Part shown: in pieces, positions 12,846 to 24,895 of the stretch
Layout of the letters: every line of letters starts with the position of its first letter
How positions within the stretch are numbered: position 1 is the first letter of the stretch
IMG/VR virus record: IMGVR_UViG_3300006841_000001
Location: 1 to 25,530 of that record
Direction: 5' to 3' (one strand)
Source: a virus
DNA: 25,530 nucleotides
Program-made: the position numbers and the translations under genes
Notes under the pieces: generated by a model
The model's input: the letters and a program-made list of their open reading frames with translations, nothing else
Told to the model about the DNA's origin: nothing
Databases searched by the model: none

Positions 12846-13225
12846 TACTGTGTCTCCCAACAGCGGTAGCTCGGCCACCAGTGGGACAAGCCTCCCCATC
12901 TTTCATTACTATTCTGTCCATAGTATAGGTGAGCGGCAACAGCTACGTTAGCGACAGGATCAAGAACGTGCGCTCCAGCATAACCAGCGTCGGCTGACCG
13001 TTCGATCCAATACTGGGGGAGATGCTGGAACCAGCCAGCGGCTTTACTCTTAGGATTAATAGCAACACTATACGTGTCATCAGGACTAGCAGACGATTCA
13101 CATTCAGCTACTTGTAACATTTGATCCCTGTCTTCAGGCGCAAAGAATACTGATACTAATTCATCTAACGAAGAGCAACTCCCTACACTGGTTAATGCAG
13201 TTACTAATAATAATTTAGTTAGCAT
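12845..13225 (-). CDS. Exported lysozyme-like (transglycosylase) lipoprotein
   Basis: A 126-aa protein with a signal sequence, MLTKLLLVTALTSVGSCSS. Cys17 after V-G-S is a possible lipobox, so membrane anchoring on the outer face is plausible. The rest resembles a short soluble lytic transglycosylase/lysozyme-like domain: candidate catalytic E43 in AECES, then INPKSKAAGWFQHLPQYW and the helix VANVAVAAHLYY. The end (LSHWWPSYRCW) is typical of small actinobacterial versions of this fold. It should cut glycan strands from outside the membrane without needing the holin. It is encoded in the early-type leftward block, not with the lysis genes. It overlaps its upstream neighbour by 11 bases. Confidence 0.7.
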   Translation of the reverse strand: MLTKLLLVTALTSVGSCSSLDELVSVFFAPEDRDQMLQVAECESSASPDDTYSVAINPKSKAAGWFQHLPQYWIERSADAGYAGAHVLDPVANVAVAAHLYYGQNSNERWGGLSHWWPSYRCWETQ

Positions 13226-14051
13226 CAGCAGGTATCCACTTCGGTGAACCAGTTGGATTCTTCTTAACAGCCACGCCTGCTGGTGGGATATCCCACCCTT
13301 CAGTTACTATCTCAGCTTCAATGACTTCAGCCTCAAGTTCAAGCACCGGCGCTGGCCGAGGGGGTGAATCCAGCGCCGATGCCAAACCCTTCCCTTCGAG
13401 CAACTCTTCAGGCGACGTATCCATCGACAAACGAGGAACAACAAAGTGTCTAGTCTGCCCACCAGAAACTTTAGTTCGTTTCTCTAAAGATAGCATAGCC
13501 TCAGCTAACCCTATACTCTGCAACTGACCCAACATTCCAGCCATACCCGGCATTTCATTAGCCGCGTTCCATCCCTTAGACTCTAGTCTCCATACCCCAC
13601 CGAATCTTATTTCAGGTAGGACAACACGCAACCTAGTATAAGGAGAACAAACCATTGACTGCTCAAGAGAACACAAACAAGGAACGCTGTCAGTGTCCAT
13701 GCCATCTGGAGTTTTCACCGGAACATCGGCACTCACACCATCGCAACGACGCTGACAACCACCAGCAGACCACTGCTCGTACCACACATCAATGCTGTTC
13801 GGAGGCAGGAACACCCGTATCTCAGATGAAGTAGTAATAACTTCCCACTGTTGTTGTTTAGATTTAGGTGGAGTCCAACTCTTTACATTACCACCATGGG
13901 CATTAGCTATTTGTTCTATGGCTTCTTTATCAGGAGAAGTAAACCGAAACGTGTCAAGACTTTTCATGGCACGTTCCGTCTTTACTCCCAACCGAATACG
14001 CCCATGCTCTGGTGTCCGTCCCAGATCCTGTATTGCTTTAATCGGTTTCAT
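13215..14051 (-). CDS. phiC31 Gp3-like / recombination directionality factor-like protein
   Basis: A 278-aa protein with the features of the Gp3-like family named after the phiC31 recombination directionality factor. These are an opening G-R-I-R-L-G segment (residues 17-22), LDTFRFTSPDKEAIEQIA, a beta segment ending VITTSSEIRVFLPP, and then WYEQWSAGGCQRRCDG. A second Cys cluster CLC is at 125-127, with C135. LRVVLPEI and GGVWRLESKGWNAANE follow. Cysteines at 99, 103, 125, 127 and 135 could bind zinc. The C-terminus is Pro/Glu-rich and probably disordered. In phiC31 the factor turns serine-integrase recombination from integration to excision, but relatives are frequent in phages without an integrase, where their role is unknown. 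No integrase is in this window. Confidence 0.75.
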   Translation of the reverse strand: MKPIKAIQDLGRTPEHGRIRLGVKTERAMKSLDTFRFTSPDKEAIEQIANAHGGNVKSWTPPKSKQQQWEVITTSSEIRVFLPPNSIDVWYEQWSAGGCQRRCDGVSADVPVKTPDGMDTDSVPCLCSLEQSMVCSPYTRLRVVLPEIRFGGVWRLESKGWNAANEMPGMAGMLGQLQSIGLAEAMLSLEKRTKVSGGQTRHFVVPRLSMDTSPEELLEGKGLASALDSPPRPAPVLELEAEVIEAEIVTEGWDIPPAGVAVKKNPTGSPKWIPADAN

Positions 14052-21156: not shown

Positions 21157-21360
21157 TAATCAAGTGGTGGATGGTCTAAAGATTTTTTTTTCTAGATCCA
21201 ACCGTTTTTTTTTTTCGCCCTTTGGTTCTTTGGGCGAGCAAAGAACGAATCAGCGCGGTGGGTCGCTCATACCCACTGATGTTTTTGGTTCCGGTTTTTG
21301 CATCATTGTAAAAAGCGGAGACTTGTTGCCTCAAAACCTAAACACCTAAAGCAAATTGGA

Positions 21361-21452
21361 ACTTGACAAGTGCTGATAAGATGAACTCCTTAAATCTCAT
21401 CACGCCTTTCGATGAGATTTTTTAGAAGTTCACTTACTCACGCTTGTCAAGT
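21361..21452. repeat. Nested inverted repeat with two palindromic operator-like ends
   Basis: Outer arms ACTTGACAAG (21361-21370) and CTTGTCAAGT (21443-21452) are exact complements, and each is itself a near-palindrome (ACTTG-A-CAAGT, CTTG-T-CAAG). Inside lie TGAACT/AGTTCA and then the 10-bp terminator-like hairpin. The whole could extrude as a cruciform or bind a dimeric repressor at two spaced sites. Confidence 0.55.
21392..21423 (+). terminator. Intrinsic terminator
   Basis: AAATCTCATC (21392-21401), a 9-base loop, then GATGAGATTT (21411-21420) running into a six-T tract (21418-21423). This is a textbook rightward intrinsic terminator. No annotated rightward gene precedes it, so it may end an unannotated RNA starting in 21.2-21.4 kb. 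Confidence 0.6.
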
Positions 21453-21712
21453 GAGAACTTTGCAACCAGTTGACCACAGCCCCGCCGAAGGGAACAATCA
21501 AATCACTAACCTACCGGCGGACACAAACAACTAACAAACACGCCAGTGTCTACCAAACCCTTCTCCTGCCCCCTGACACCACGTACACACCCAATCCCAC
21601 ACAACCTGTCTACCTCATACCCTAAAAGCCTACAAAAGCCAGTAAAATTGAATCATTAAGTGCTGATTAGCTCCATGTGGTGTTTTCTTAGGTGTGGGTG
21701 TGTGAATGTAGG

Positions 21713-21758: not shown

Positions 21759-21831
21759 TCGGTTTGGCTAACCCACCGATGTACCCGAAGGGGGTTCATT
21801 AAATATGTGTCAGGCTTGTTATTCTCGTCGT

Positions 21832-22011
21832 GGACACCCGATGTGTTGAGTCTGGTTTCCCCTTGGGTGCCATCCGTCCGTTTTGAGTACGGTTCCACTC
21901 TGAGTTCGAGCGATCACGCTTTGCTCTGTCCCTGCCGACTTGCTGGTAGGGAGCAGAAGCCCTTCTAACGGGCGAACGGAACCTGATAAGGGTTCGCACA
22001 TCTCATTTTTT
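21832..22011 (+). ncRNA. Candidate structured RNA of about 180 nt
   Basis: Consecutive helices: GG(A)CACCC/GGGTGCC (21832-21839 with 21865-21871, one bulge), CCGT/ACGG (21878-21892), AGCG/CGCT (21909-21920), TCCCTGCC/GGTAGGGA (21929-21936 with 21945-21952, one G.T pair), GCCC/GGGC (21959-21973), and CG(G)AACC/GGTTCG (21977-21996). T6 follows at 22006-22011. The block is visibly richer in G+C than its surroundings and has no credible frame. Strand is inferred from the terminal T-tract. It does not match tRNA, tmRNA or another RNA that I recognise. Confidence 0.45.
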
Positions 22012-22043
22012 ATGAATATGCCCTGTGATGTGGACGGGGCTCG

Positions 22044-22075
22044 GATATATTTATATCATAGTACTGAACATGTTC
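22044..22075 (+). promoter_or_regulatory. Palindromes before the rightward fibre operon
   Basis: GATATA-TT-TATATC (22044-22057) and the perfect palindrome GAACATGTTC (22066-22075) lie 20-50 bases before ATG 22096 with its AGGAGA site. The A/T-rich palindrome could contain a -10 element; the second looks like an operator. No good -35 box is visible, so a host sigma factor with an activator, or a phage polymerase, may be used. Confidence 0.4.
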
Positions 22076-22095
22076 AAACCTTTTAGGAGATATTA

Positions 22096-22482
22096 ATGTC
22101 AGCAATGTCAAATTACTTGGAGACTAAAGTCTTAGACTATGTTCTCCGCGATCAAGCAGATTGGGCTCCAACTGCTGTGTATCTTGCTTTGCATACCGCA
22201 GATCCTACTGATGCCGGTTCCGGTGCAGAGTGTTCTGGCGGGTCTTATGCACGGCAGGCTATTACTTTTAATGCCGCCCATGCTACTAACGGTACGATAG
22301 ACAATTCGTCCGCTGAGGAGTTTACTTCCATGCCAGCTTGCACTGTGAGCCATATAGGTATTTGGGATGCGGCTTCTTCGGGTAACCTTTTGTTTTATGG
22401 TGCTGTTACTGCATCTAAGGCTGTTGCATCTGGAGACACTATTTCAATGGCGGCAGGTGCGCTAGTTATAACATTGGCATAG
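22096..22482 (+). CDS. Tail-associated structural protein of a common phage family
   Basis: A 128-aa protein after AGGAGA. Its pattern, M-S-N-Y-L-E-x3-L-D-Y-V, then VYLALHTADPTDAG, then ECSGGSYARQAITF, THE small-residue middle, and VSHIGIWDAASSGNLLFYG with a T-I-S-x-A-A-G-A-L-V-I-T-L end, is found in many actinobacteriophages and cyanophages, usually within tail or fibre gene clusters. It is a compact beta-sandwich-like protein with no enzyme motif. It probably forms part of the tail tip, fibre base or a head decoration. It is first in the rightward operon behind the divergent region. Confidence 0.65.
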   Translation: MSAMSNYLETKVLDYVLRDQADWAPTAVYLALHTADPTDAGSGAECSGGSYARQAITFNAAHATNGTIDNSSAEEFTSMPACTVSHIGIWDAASSGNLLFYGAVTASKAVASGDTISMAAGALVITLA

Positions 22483-24281: not shown

Positions 24282-24895
24282 TGTCTGCATCTGACGGTTT
24301 AATATTGCATGGGTCTACAACAGTGTCGGGTGACACAACTACGTCTATAGTTTTTCCTCTTTATGATGCTGGAGTATTTTATTGTTCGTTAGCGACACAT
24401 GCTGACGATACAGGTAGCGCAGATTATGGTTACGGCTGGGCTTATGCAAGGCTTTATAGCGCGGCTGACGGTTGGGCTAATGGAGCATCACAATACGATT
24501 TTAACCAAATATATTCTTCTGGTAACGCTCCGACAGCTTTCACAAATAAAACTAGCGCGTTTTCATACATGGCTGTAGCTAATCAACATTCCACTATTGA
24601 CGAGCATCAATGGGGTGTAACAAGAATTGAATATCGAAACATGGATGACAGCAACTTTACTTTTATAGCTGACGAATTTTGTTCTGCTAACGACACAAAC
24701 GTAATACCATCAGGCAGGAGTGTTCCATATGGGAAAATAGATGGACACCCTCCTTATGAATGGATTGGTCGAGGAGGCGGTACATGCGAAACTTCCAATA
24801 AACCTACGCATATTTATTTTTATATAAATGGAGTTAGCATTACAAATTATGCACCCGGATCAATAATTTCACAATTCTATTGGAATTTTTCATAA
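24281..24895 (+). CDS. Fibre-tip / receptor-binding-type protein 3
   Basis: 204 aa, third of three. It starts MSASDGLILHGSTTVSGDTT and is beta-prone and aromatic (YDAGVFYCSLATHADDTG, YGYGWAYARLYS). It ends IYFYINGVSITNYAPGSIIS-QFYWNFS; PGSIISQFYW is the counterpart of the closing G-S-Y-x-L-x-G strand of gene 1. Its start overlaps the previous stop and AAGGAG follows for the next gene. Same inferred role as its neighbours. Confidence 0.55.
   Translation: MSASDGLILHGSTTVSGDTTTSIVFPLYDAGVFYCSLATHADDTGSADYGYGWAYARLYSAADGWANGASQYDFNQIYSSGNAPTAFTNKTSAFSYMAVANQHSTIDEHQWGVTRIEYRNMDDSNFTFIADEFCSANDTNVIPSGRSVPYGKIDGHPPYEWIGRGGGTCETSNKPTHIYFYINGVSITNYAPGSIISQFYWNFS

Follow-up and report, generated by a model that had tools for sequence, protein, structure and literature searches.

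Structure of the intergenic element

The DNA analyzed here (the window) is a 25,530-nt stretch of the virus record IMGVR_UViG_3300006841_000001, positions 1 to 25,530. Within it, the interval 21832-22011 contains no convincing genes, as a preliminary description of this DNA had proposed, and the downstream gene (22096-22482) encodes a podophage GP4 fibre I protein (Pfam PF23140). A tRNA search of the interval found none. Apart from an unrelated tRNA in contig L175, neither the window nor any tested member of the family described below matched an Rfam family above its gathering cut-off, in keeping with the earlier view that this is no known class of RNA.

The interval was folded on both strands. 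Because the folding energy was only modestly better than chance (plus strand, z -2.0, with 8 of 200 shuffles as good; minus strand, z -1.9), a single sequence would not convince, and this measure was rejected as a judge of either strand or reality. Comparative evidence is decisive for the reality of a structured element. Using the downstream fibre gene as bait, we collected 48 related loci; about 25 of these also have conserved DNA upstream of the gene, and homologous DNA is present in dozens of marine viral contigs. The fold of this marine set is a chain of hairpins flanked by two pseudoknots (Table 1).

Table 1. Features of the element in the window, and matches to the P7-P6 covariance model (R1) in mycobacteriophage origins.
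Feature	Sequence	Positions	Strand	Description
Candidate -35 box	window	22072-22077	minus	TTGAAC; predicted from sequence; 16 nt from the -10 box
Candidate extended -10	window	22050-22058	minus	TG-A-TATAAA; from sequence; predicted transcription start about 22042-22044
PK-B pseudoknot	window	21997-22040	minus	hairpin 22034-22040/22020-22026; loop 22027-22032 pairs with 21997-22002
P7 hairpin	window	21979-21995	minus	7-nt loop, plus-strand family consensus about KGNYNAG; variable stem
P6 hairpin	window	21959-21973	minus	near-invariant; plus strand GCCC-NTCTRAC-GGGC, then GAY; family hallmark
P5 hairpin	window	21929-21952	minus	long; 8-bp stem TCCCTGCC/GGTAGGGA, 21929-21936 with 21945-21952; family-wide, usually ends about 6 nt from P6
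P4 hairpin	window	21902-21926	minus	plus strand GAGT/GCTC; relatives GACC/GGTC, GCATC/GATGC; alignment judged by eye
PK-A, H-type pseudoknot	window	21878-21900	minus	CCGT/ACGG with GAGT/ACTC (helices 6 and 7); 21885-21888, inside 21878-21892, pairs with 21897-21900
Conserved purine-rich block	window	21859-21877	minus	GGATGGCACCCAAGGGG; GGAGGG in another subclade
Possible hairpin	window	21807-21837	minus	plus strand GTGTC/GACAC; variable-length linker to core
Downstream box	window	21779-21805	plus-strand sequence	ATGTACC, 14 nt, A/T-rich hexamer; candidate initiation site or opposing promoter
R1 match	RedRock	27572-27616	minus	49.7 bits
R1 match	LadyBird	26198-26242	minus	51.3 bits
R1 match	Gladiator	24748-24792	minus	39.5 bits
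R1 match	Alma	26742-26786	minus	33.4 bits

Covariation, which the preliminary description had put forward as a check on its candidate, is present. Across the marine alignment, 14 pairs of the scored structure show two-sided changes and 92.5% of cells are paired, against at most 3 such pairs and at most 38.5% paired cells in slid-partner controls. P4 was left out of this scoring because it is misaligned between subclades. The signal is clearest in helix 3 of PK-B (CACATC/GATGTG), where all six pairs change on both sides and 97.8% of cells are paired; one of these pairs, for example, is G-C in 14 sequences, C-G in 7, A-U in 6, and U-A in 3. In PK-A, two-sided changes occur in three of the four S2 pairs, and S1 is invariant. 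A broader set of 49 sequences from many families gave 89 cells with two-sided changes, against 32 after shuffling, and 96.8% pairing, against no more than 52% with slid partners; in this set all five P7 pairs change on both sides.

We therefore have very high confidence that the candidate is a real, conserved structured phage element, although its ends and role, and probably its strand, had been wrongly assigned. The 8-bp stem with one G.T pair noted earlier is indeed present, as P5. The proposed end at 22011 is too early, since PK-B extends to 22040, and the RNA is longer than the 180 nt suggested. The T6 tract is present at 22006-22011, but not as a terminator: it lies in a PK-B loop, the T run is not kept in relatives, and it is absent from the list of terminator-like sites in the window.

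Two further conserved features lie farther along the minus-strand RNA. The ATGTRCC box occurs in 45 of 92 members, where 2.5 would be expected, and its distance from P6 is almost always 177-240 nt. Several families also keep purine blocks that resemble a Shine-Dalgarno sequence (GGAGG or GGATGG) in the minus-strand RNA, with no start codon evident.

Distribution and genomic setting of the family

The set was enlarged by three pattern scans and by one scan of bacterial genomes, which contributed two contigs from Actinomycetota and Dehalococcoidia bins; since phage contigs are prone to misbinning, the host of these two is uncertain. The P6 pattern GCCCNTCTGACGGGCGAY retrieved 112 viral DNA stretches. 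Matches within long open reading frames or without neighboring hairpins were excluded, and the first pattern match (L083) was set aside. The remaining matches are mostly intergenic and have the same P5 and P7 neighbors. The hallmark of the family is the adjacent pair of hairpins P7 and P6, and by sequence similarity its members form 21 families, many of them with a single sequence. Among isolates, the element occurs in Mycobacterium subcluster A4 phages, RedRock-type phages, and Gordonia phage Coeur, where it lies between genes and carries no annotation.

We built a covariance model of P7 plus P6 (R1) from 49 training rows, five of them RedRock-type. R1 finds exactly one copy per viral record in 30 of 30 records. 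In about 590 Actinomycetota and Dehalococcoidia genomes it gave, beyond the two seed contigs, only two weak matches (L224 and L225), which we judged to be chance: both are apparently coding sequence, L225 by eye part of an acetyltransferase-like protein. Because these are the only bacterial matches besides the seeds, the element looks phage-borne. The abundant RNAs of Rhodococcus phage WC1 and of D29 were rejected as homologs, as the motif was not found in WC1 or in the D29 right end. In D29 (L219), a stretch that looks tRNA-like by eye, GGGTAGC...CCAGGTTCGATTCCTGGCTACCC, lies on the minus strand at about 47,975-48,080, inside the Pleft noncoding RNA region; it was rejected as a tRNA, since ARAGORN makes no call there.

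Most marine families carry the element in the gap that separates leftward genes from rightward late genes, about 100 nt away from the gene on its right. RedRock-type phages have it in the middle of the genome, ahead of parA; in A4 phages it lies at the genome's right end, within the early Pleft region and outside any mapped origin. Many of the marine contigs (L002-L034) stop no more than a few hundred bases from the RNA; a conserved stretch common to otherwise different co-occurring phages may be what breaks assembly there.

Among the 30 viral records with the element, some of which may be incomplete contigs, we found no family-A DNA polymerase (DNA_pol_A) and no tyrosine integrase, and DnaB helicase (DnaB_C) in one. 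This scarcity of phage polymerase and helicase fits the use of host replication enzymes. AAA_31/ParA was likewise found in none of the 30; the marine records thus do not share the plasmid-prophage setting in which the proven origins discussed below occur. A Gp3-like protein of the recombination-directionality-factor family, encoded at 13215-14051 in the window, is present in 10 of the 30 records despite the lack of a detected tyrosine integrase, and may have a replication role.

Strand and promoters

The element is very likely a minus-strand RNA. Of 64 non-redundant members, 34 have a leftward extended -10 in its strict form, TGNTANNNT, just past the outermost helix, where 1.8 would be expected; on the plus strand, 22 were counted and 8.3 expected. 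It is because of this leftward enrichment that the RNA is most likely to be read from the minus strand. The window's own -10 box was not counted because it ends in A, a near match to the strict form, and the RedRock-type members have no leftward extended -10 beside P7. In all seven testable families, the minus strand gives the higher structure conservation index, to which base composition contributes, and in five of six families its unpaired columns contain more A than U. Together with the RNA of homologous loci described below, promoter counts, structure index, and unpaired columns thus favor the minus strand, and the plus strand chosen in the preliminary description is probably wrong. Wobble pairs favor neither strand (27 G.T versus 15 A.C cells; 11 versus 11 columns), and counting them was rejected as a strand test.

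Transcription from both strands may nevertheless occur here: a plus-strand sigma-70-like site overlaps the promoter region of the window, so that divergent promoters are possible. The conserved TATCAT was considered as a late promoter pointing rightward into leaderless genes. We dropped that reading because the spacing to the start codon varies and the reverse complement makes a much more convincing extended -10; the TATCAT stretch is still a possible plus-strand promoter site.

Relationship to RNA-based origins and proposed role

In cluster A parABS mycobacteriophages that lack RepA, a segment of about 600 bp upstream of parA replicates autonomously with no protein product (Wetzel et al. 2020; PMC7157519). 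Strand-specific RNA-seq shows a noncoding RNA that is read from this region in reverse, and Alma and LadyBird require the region for stable lysogeny; the authors describe these as the first RNA-based origins of their kind in prophages, in a text that makes no mention of RNA secondary structure for them (PMC7157519). R1 matches all four origins examined, on the minus (RNA) strand and inside the published intervals, with E values from 2e-11 to 7e-7 (Table 1). The RedRock and LadyBird matches are not independent because five training rows are RedRock-type, one of them identical to the LadyBird stretch; Alma and Gladiator are less closely related and differ in the P6 stem by a pair change that is compensated. 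Bachome, standing in for Et2Brutus, an A11 phage with a proven RNA-based origin, has no R1 match, so the core may be dispensable in some RNA-based origins.

The marine element shares with these prophage origins the P7-P6 pair on the corresponding strand, a mostly ORF-poor region, and a single copy. It differs in lying at the divergence of early and late genes with no ParA or integrase detected, whereas theirs adjoin parABS, and in having PK-A and PK-B and a distinct downstream box. We judge it to be a structurally defined new branch of a recently recognized kind of origin, a branch that occurs mostly in uncultured phages.

By this analogy, the locus is probably an RNA-based replication origin with the element as its initiator RNA. 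In this phage, an RNA of roughly 250-290 nt would start near 22,043 on the minus strand, at the extended -10 promoter, and run leftward, away from the fibre operon, through PK-B, P7, P6, P5, P4, and PK-A to the A/T-rich box near 21,780-21,805. On the model of the mycobacteriophage origins bearing the same hairpins, it would start replication without a phage initiator protein. Most plausibly, the nascent RNA would fold, stay hybridized to its template near the downstream box, and then be processed to prime the host DNA polymerase in the manner of ColE1 RNA II. The resemblance to ColE1 RNA II and RNA I, also drawn by Wetzel et al. (PMC7157519), is one of proposed logic, a structured RNA priming host polymerase without an initiator protein, and not of sequence. 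We consider it likely that the RNA acts in replication; that it does so specifically as a primer is, by the same analogy, an evenly balanced proposition. The preliminary description's phage small RNA holds insofar as this is a noncoding RNA of a non-Rfam family, but the evidence favors an origin RNA over a free, abundant one.

An unlikely alternative is an early leader or free regulatory RNA, transcribed on the minus strand from an early promoter, that affects either the host in trans or, in cis, elongation through the early operon. The element does open a leftward early transcription unit in marine families, and its setting resembles that of the Pleft RNA of cluster A phages (L5, D29, Kampy), which likewise comes from an early leftward promoter region. 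The P7-P6 pair is present in the A4 phages Wile and Kampy, where it falls within the region upstream of Kampy gene 88, reported to be transcribed from right to left. Uncalled DNA upstream of gene 88 accounts for 41-51% of early phage transcription, a figure for the region and not for the element itself (PMC4626039), and the abundant, stable, and toxic Pleft RNA of L5 and D29 offers a precedent (PMC5712189). Yet the motif is missing from the D29 right end, as it is from WC1, and in RedRock-type phages the reverse-strand RNA faces the late-gene end, with no early operon downstream, and acts in replication (PMC7157519). The put RNA of phage HK022 is a structured, processive antitermination RNA beside an early promoter. 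The RedRock-type element differs from put in that it does not lead an operon.

Reading the element from the other strand, as the untranslated regulatory leader of a late (fibre or terminase) operon that starts at the ATGTRCC/A-T-rich box, would account for the strong enrichment of that box at 177-240 nt from P6, its near-constant 14-nt spacing to the A/T-rich hexamer, and the slight excess of G.T over A.C cells. We regard this as improbable, given the leftward extended -10 at the opposite end, the minus-strand structure index and A-rich loops, and the reverse-strand RNA measured in homologous origins (PMC7157519). Least credible of all is a DNA-level element without RNA, such as a cruciform or a packaging (cos) site: terminase-sized or other late genes lie nearby in many families and the wobble counts are indifferent to strand, but H-type pseudoknots with compensatory changes speak against it, as does the noncoding transcript that covers the homologous element in mycobacterial prophages (PMC7157519).

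If the locus is an RNA-based origin, the consequences reach beyond this virus. Phage RNA-based origins have so far been known from one mycobacteriophage group, with no published structure; a shared covarying RNA core would make them a definable family, predict replication start sites in many uncultured phages, and single out bases for mutagenesis in M. smegmatis origin plasmids, a tractable system. It also suggests that many marine phages begin replication using RNA and host enzymes. Only tentatively, and a little short of evenly balanced, do we extend this to an undescribed, widespread RNA family that starts initiator-protein-free replication, in lytic growth and not just in prophages, in diverse environmental phages, most of them apparently without a polymerase, helicase, integrase, or ParA of their own.

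In the window, a nested inverted repeat at 21360-21460, CTTGACAAGTG ... CACGCTTGTCAAG around AAATCTCAT-N11-ATGAGATTTTTT, is at least partly kept in three other contigs (L009, L007, and L010) and could be another regulatory element, or a terminator, that separates the RNA from the early genes. In RedRock (L221), 27659-27740 contains a plus-strand extended -10, TGGTATAGT, and, no more than about 70 nt downstream of it, a strong terminator-like hairpin; the arrangement also occurs in relatives and possibly yields a short counter-transcript, like RNA I in ColE1.
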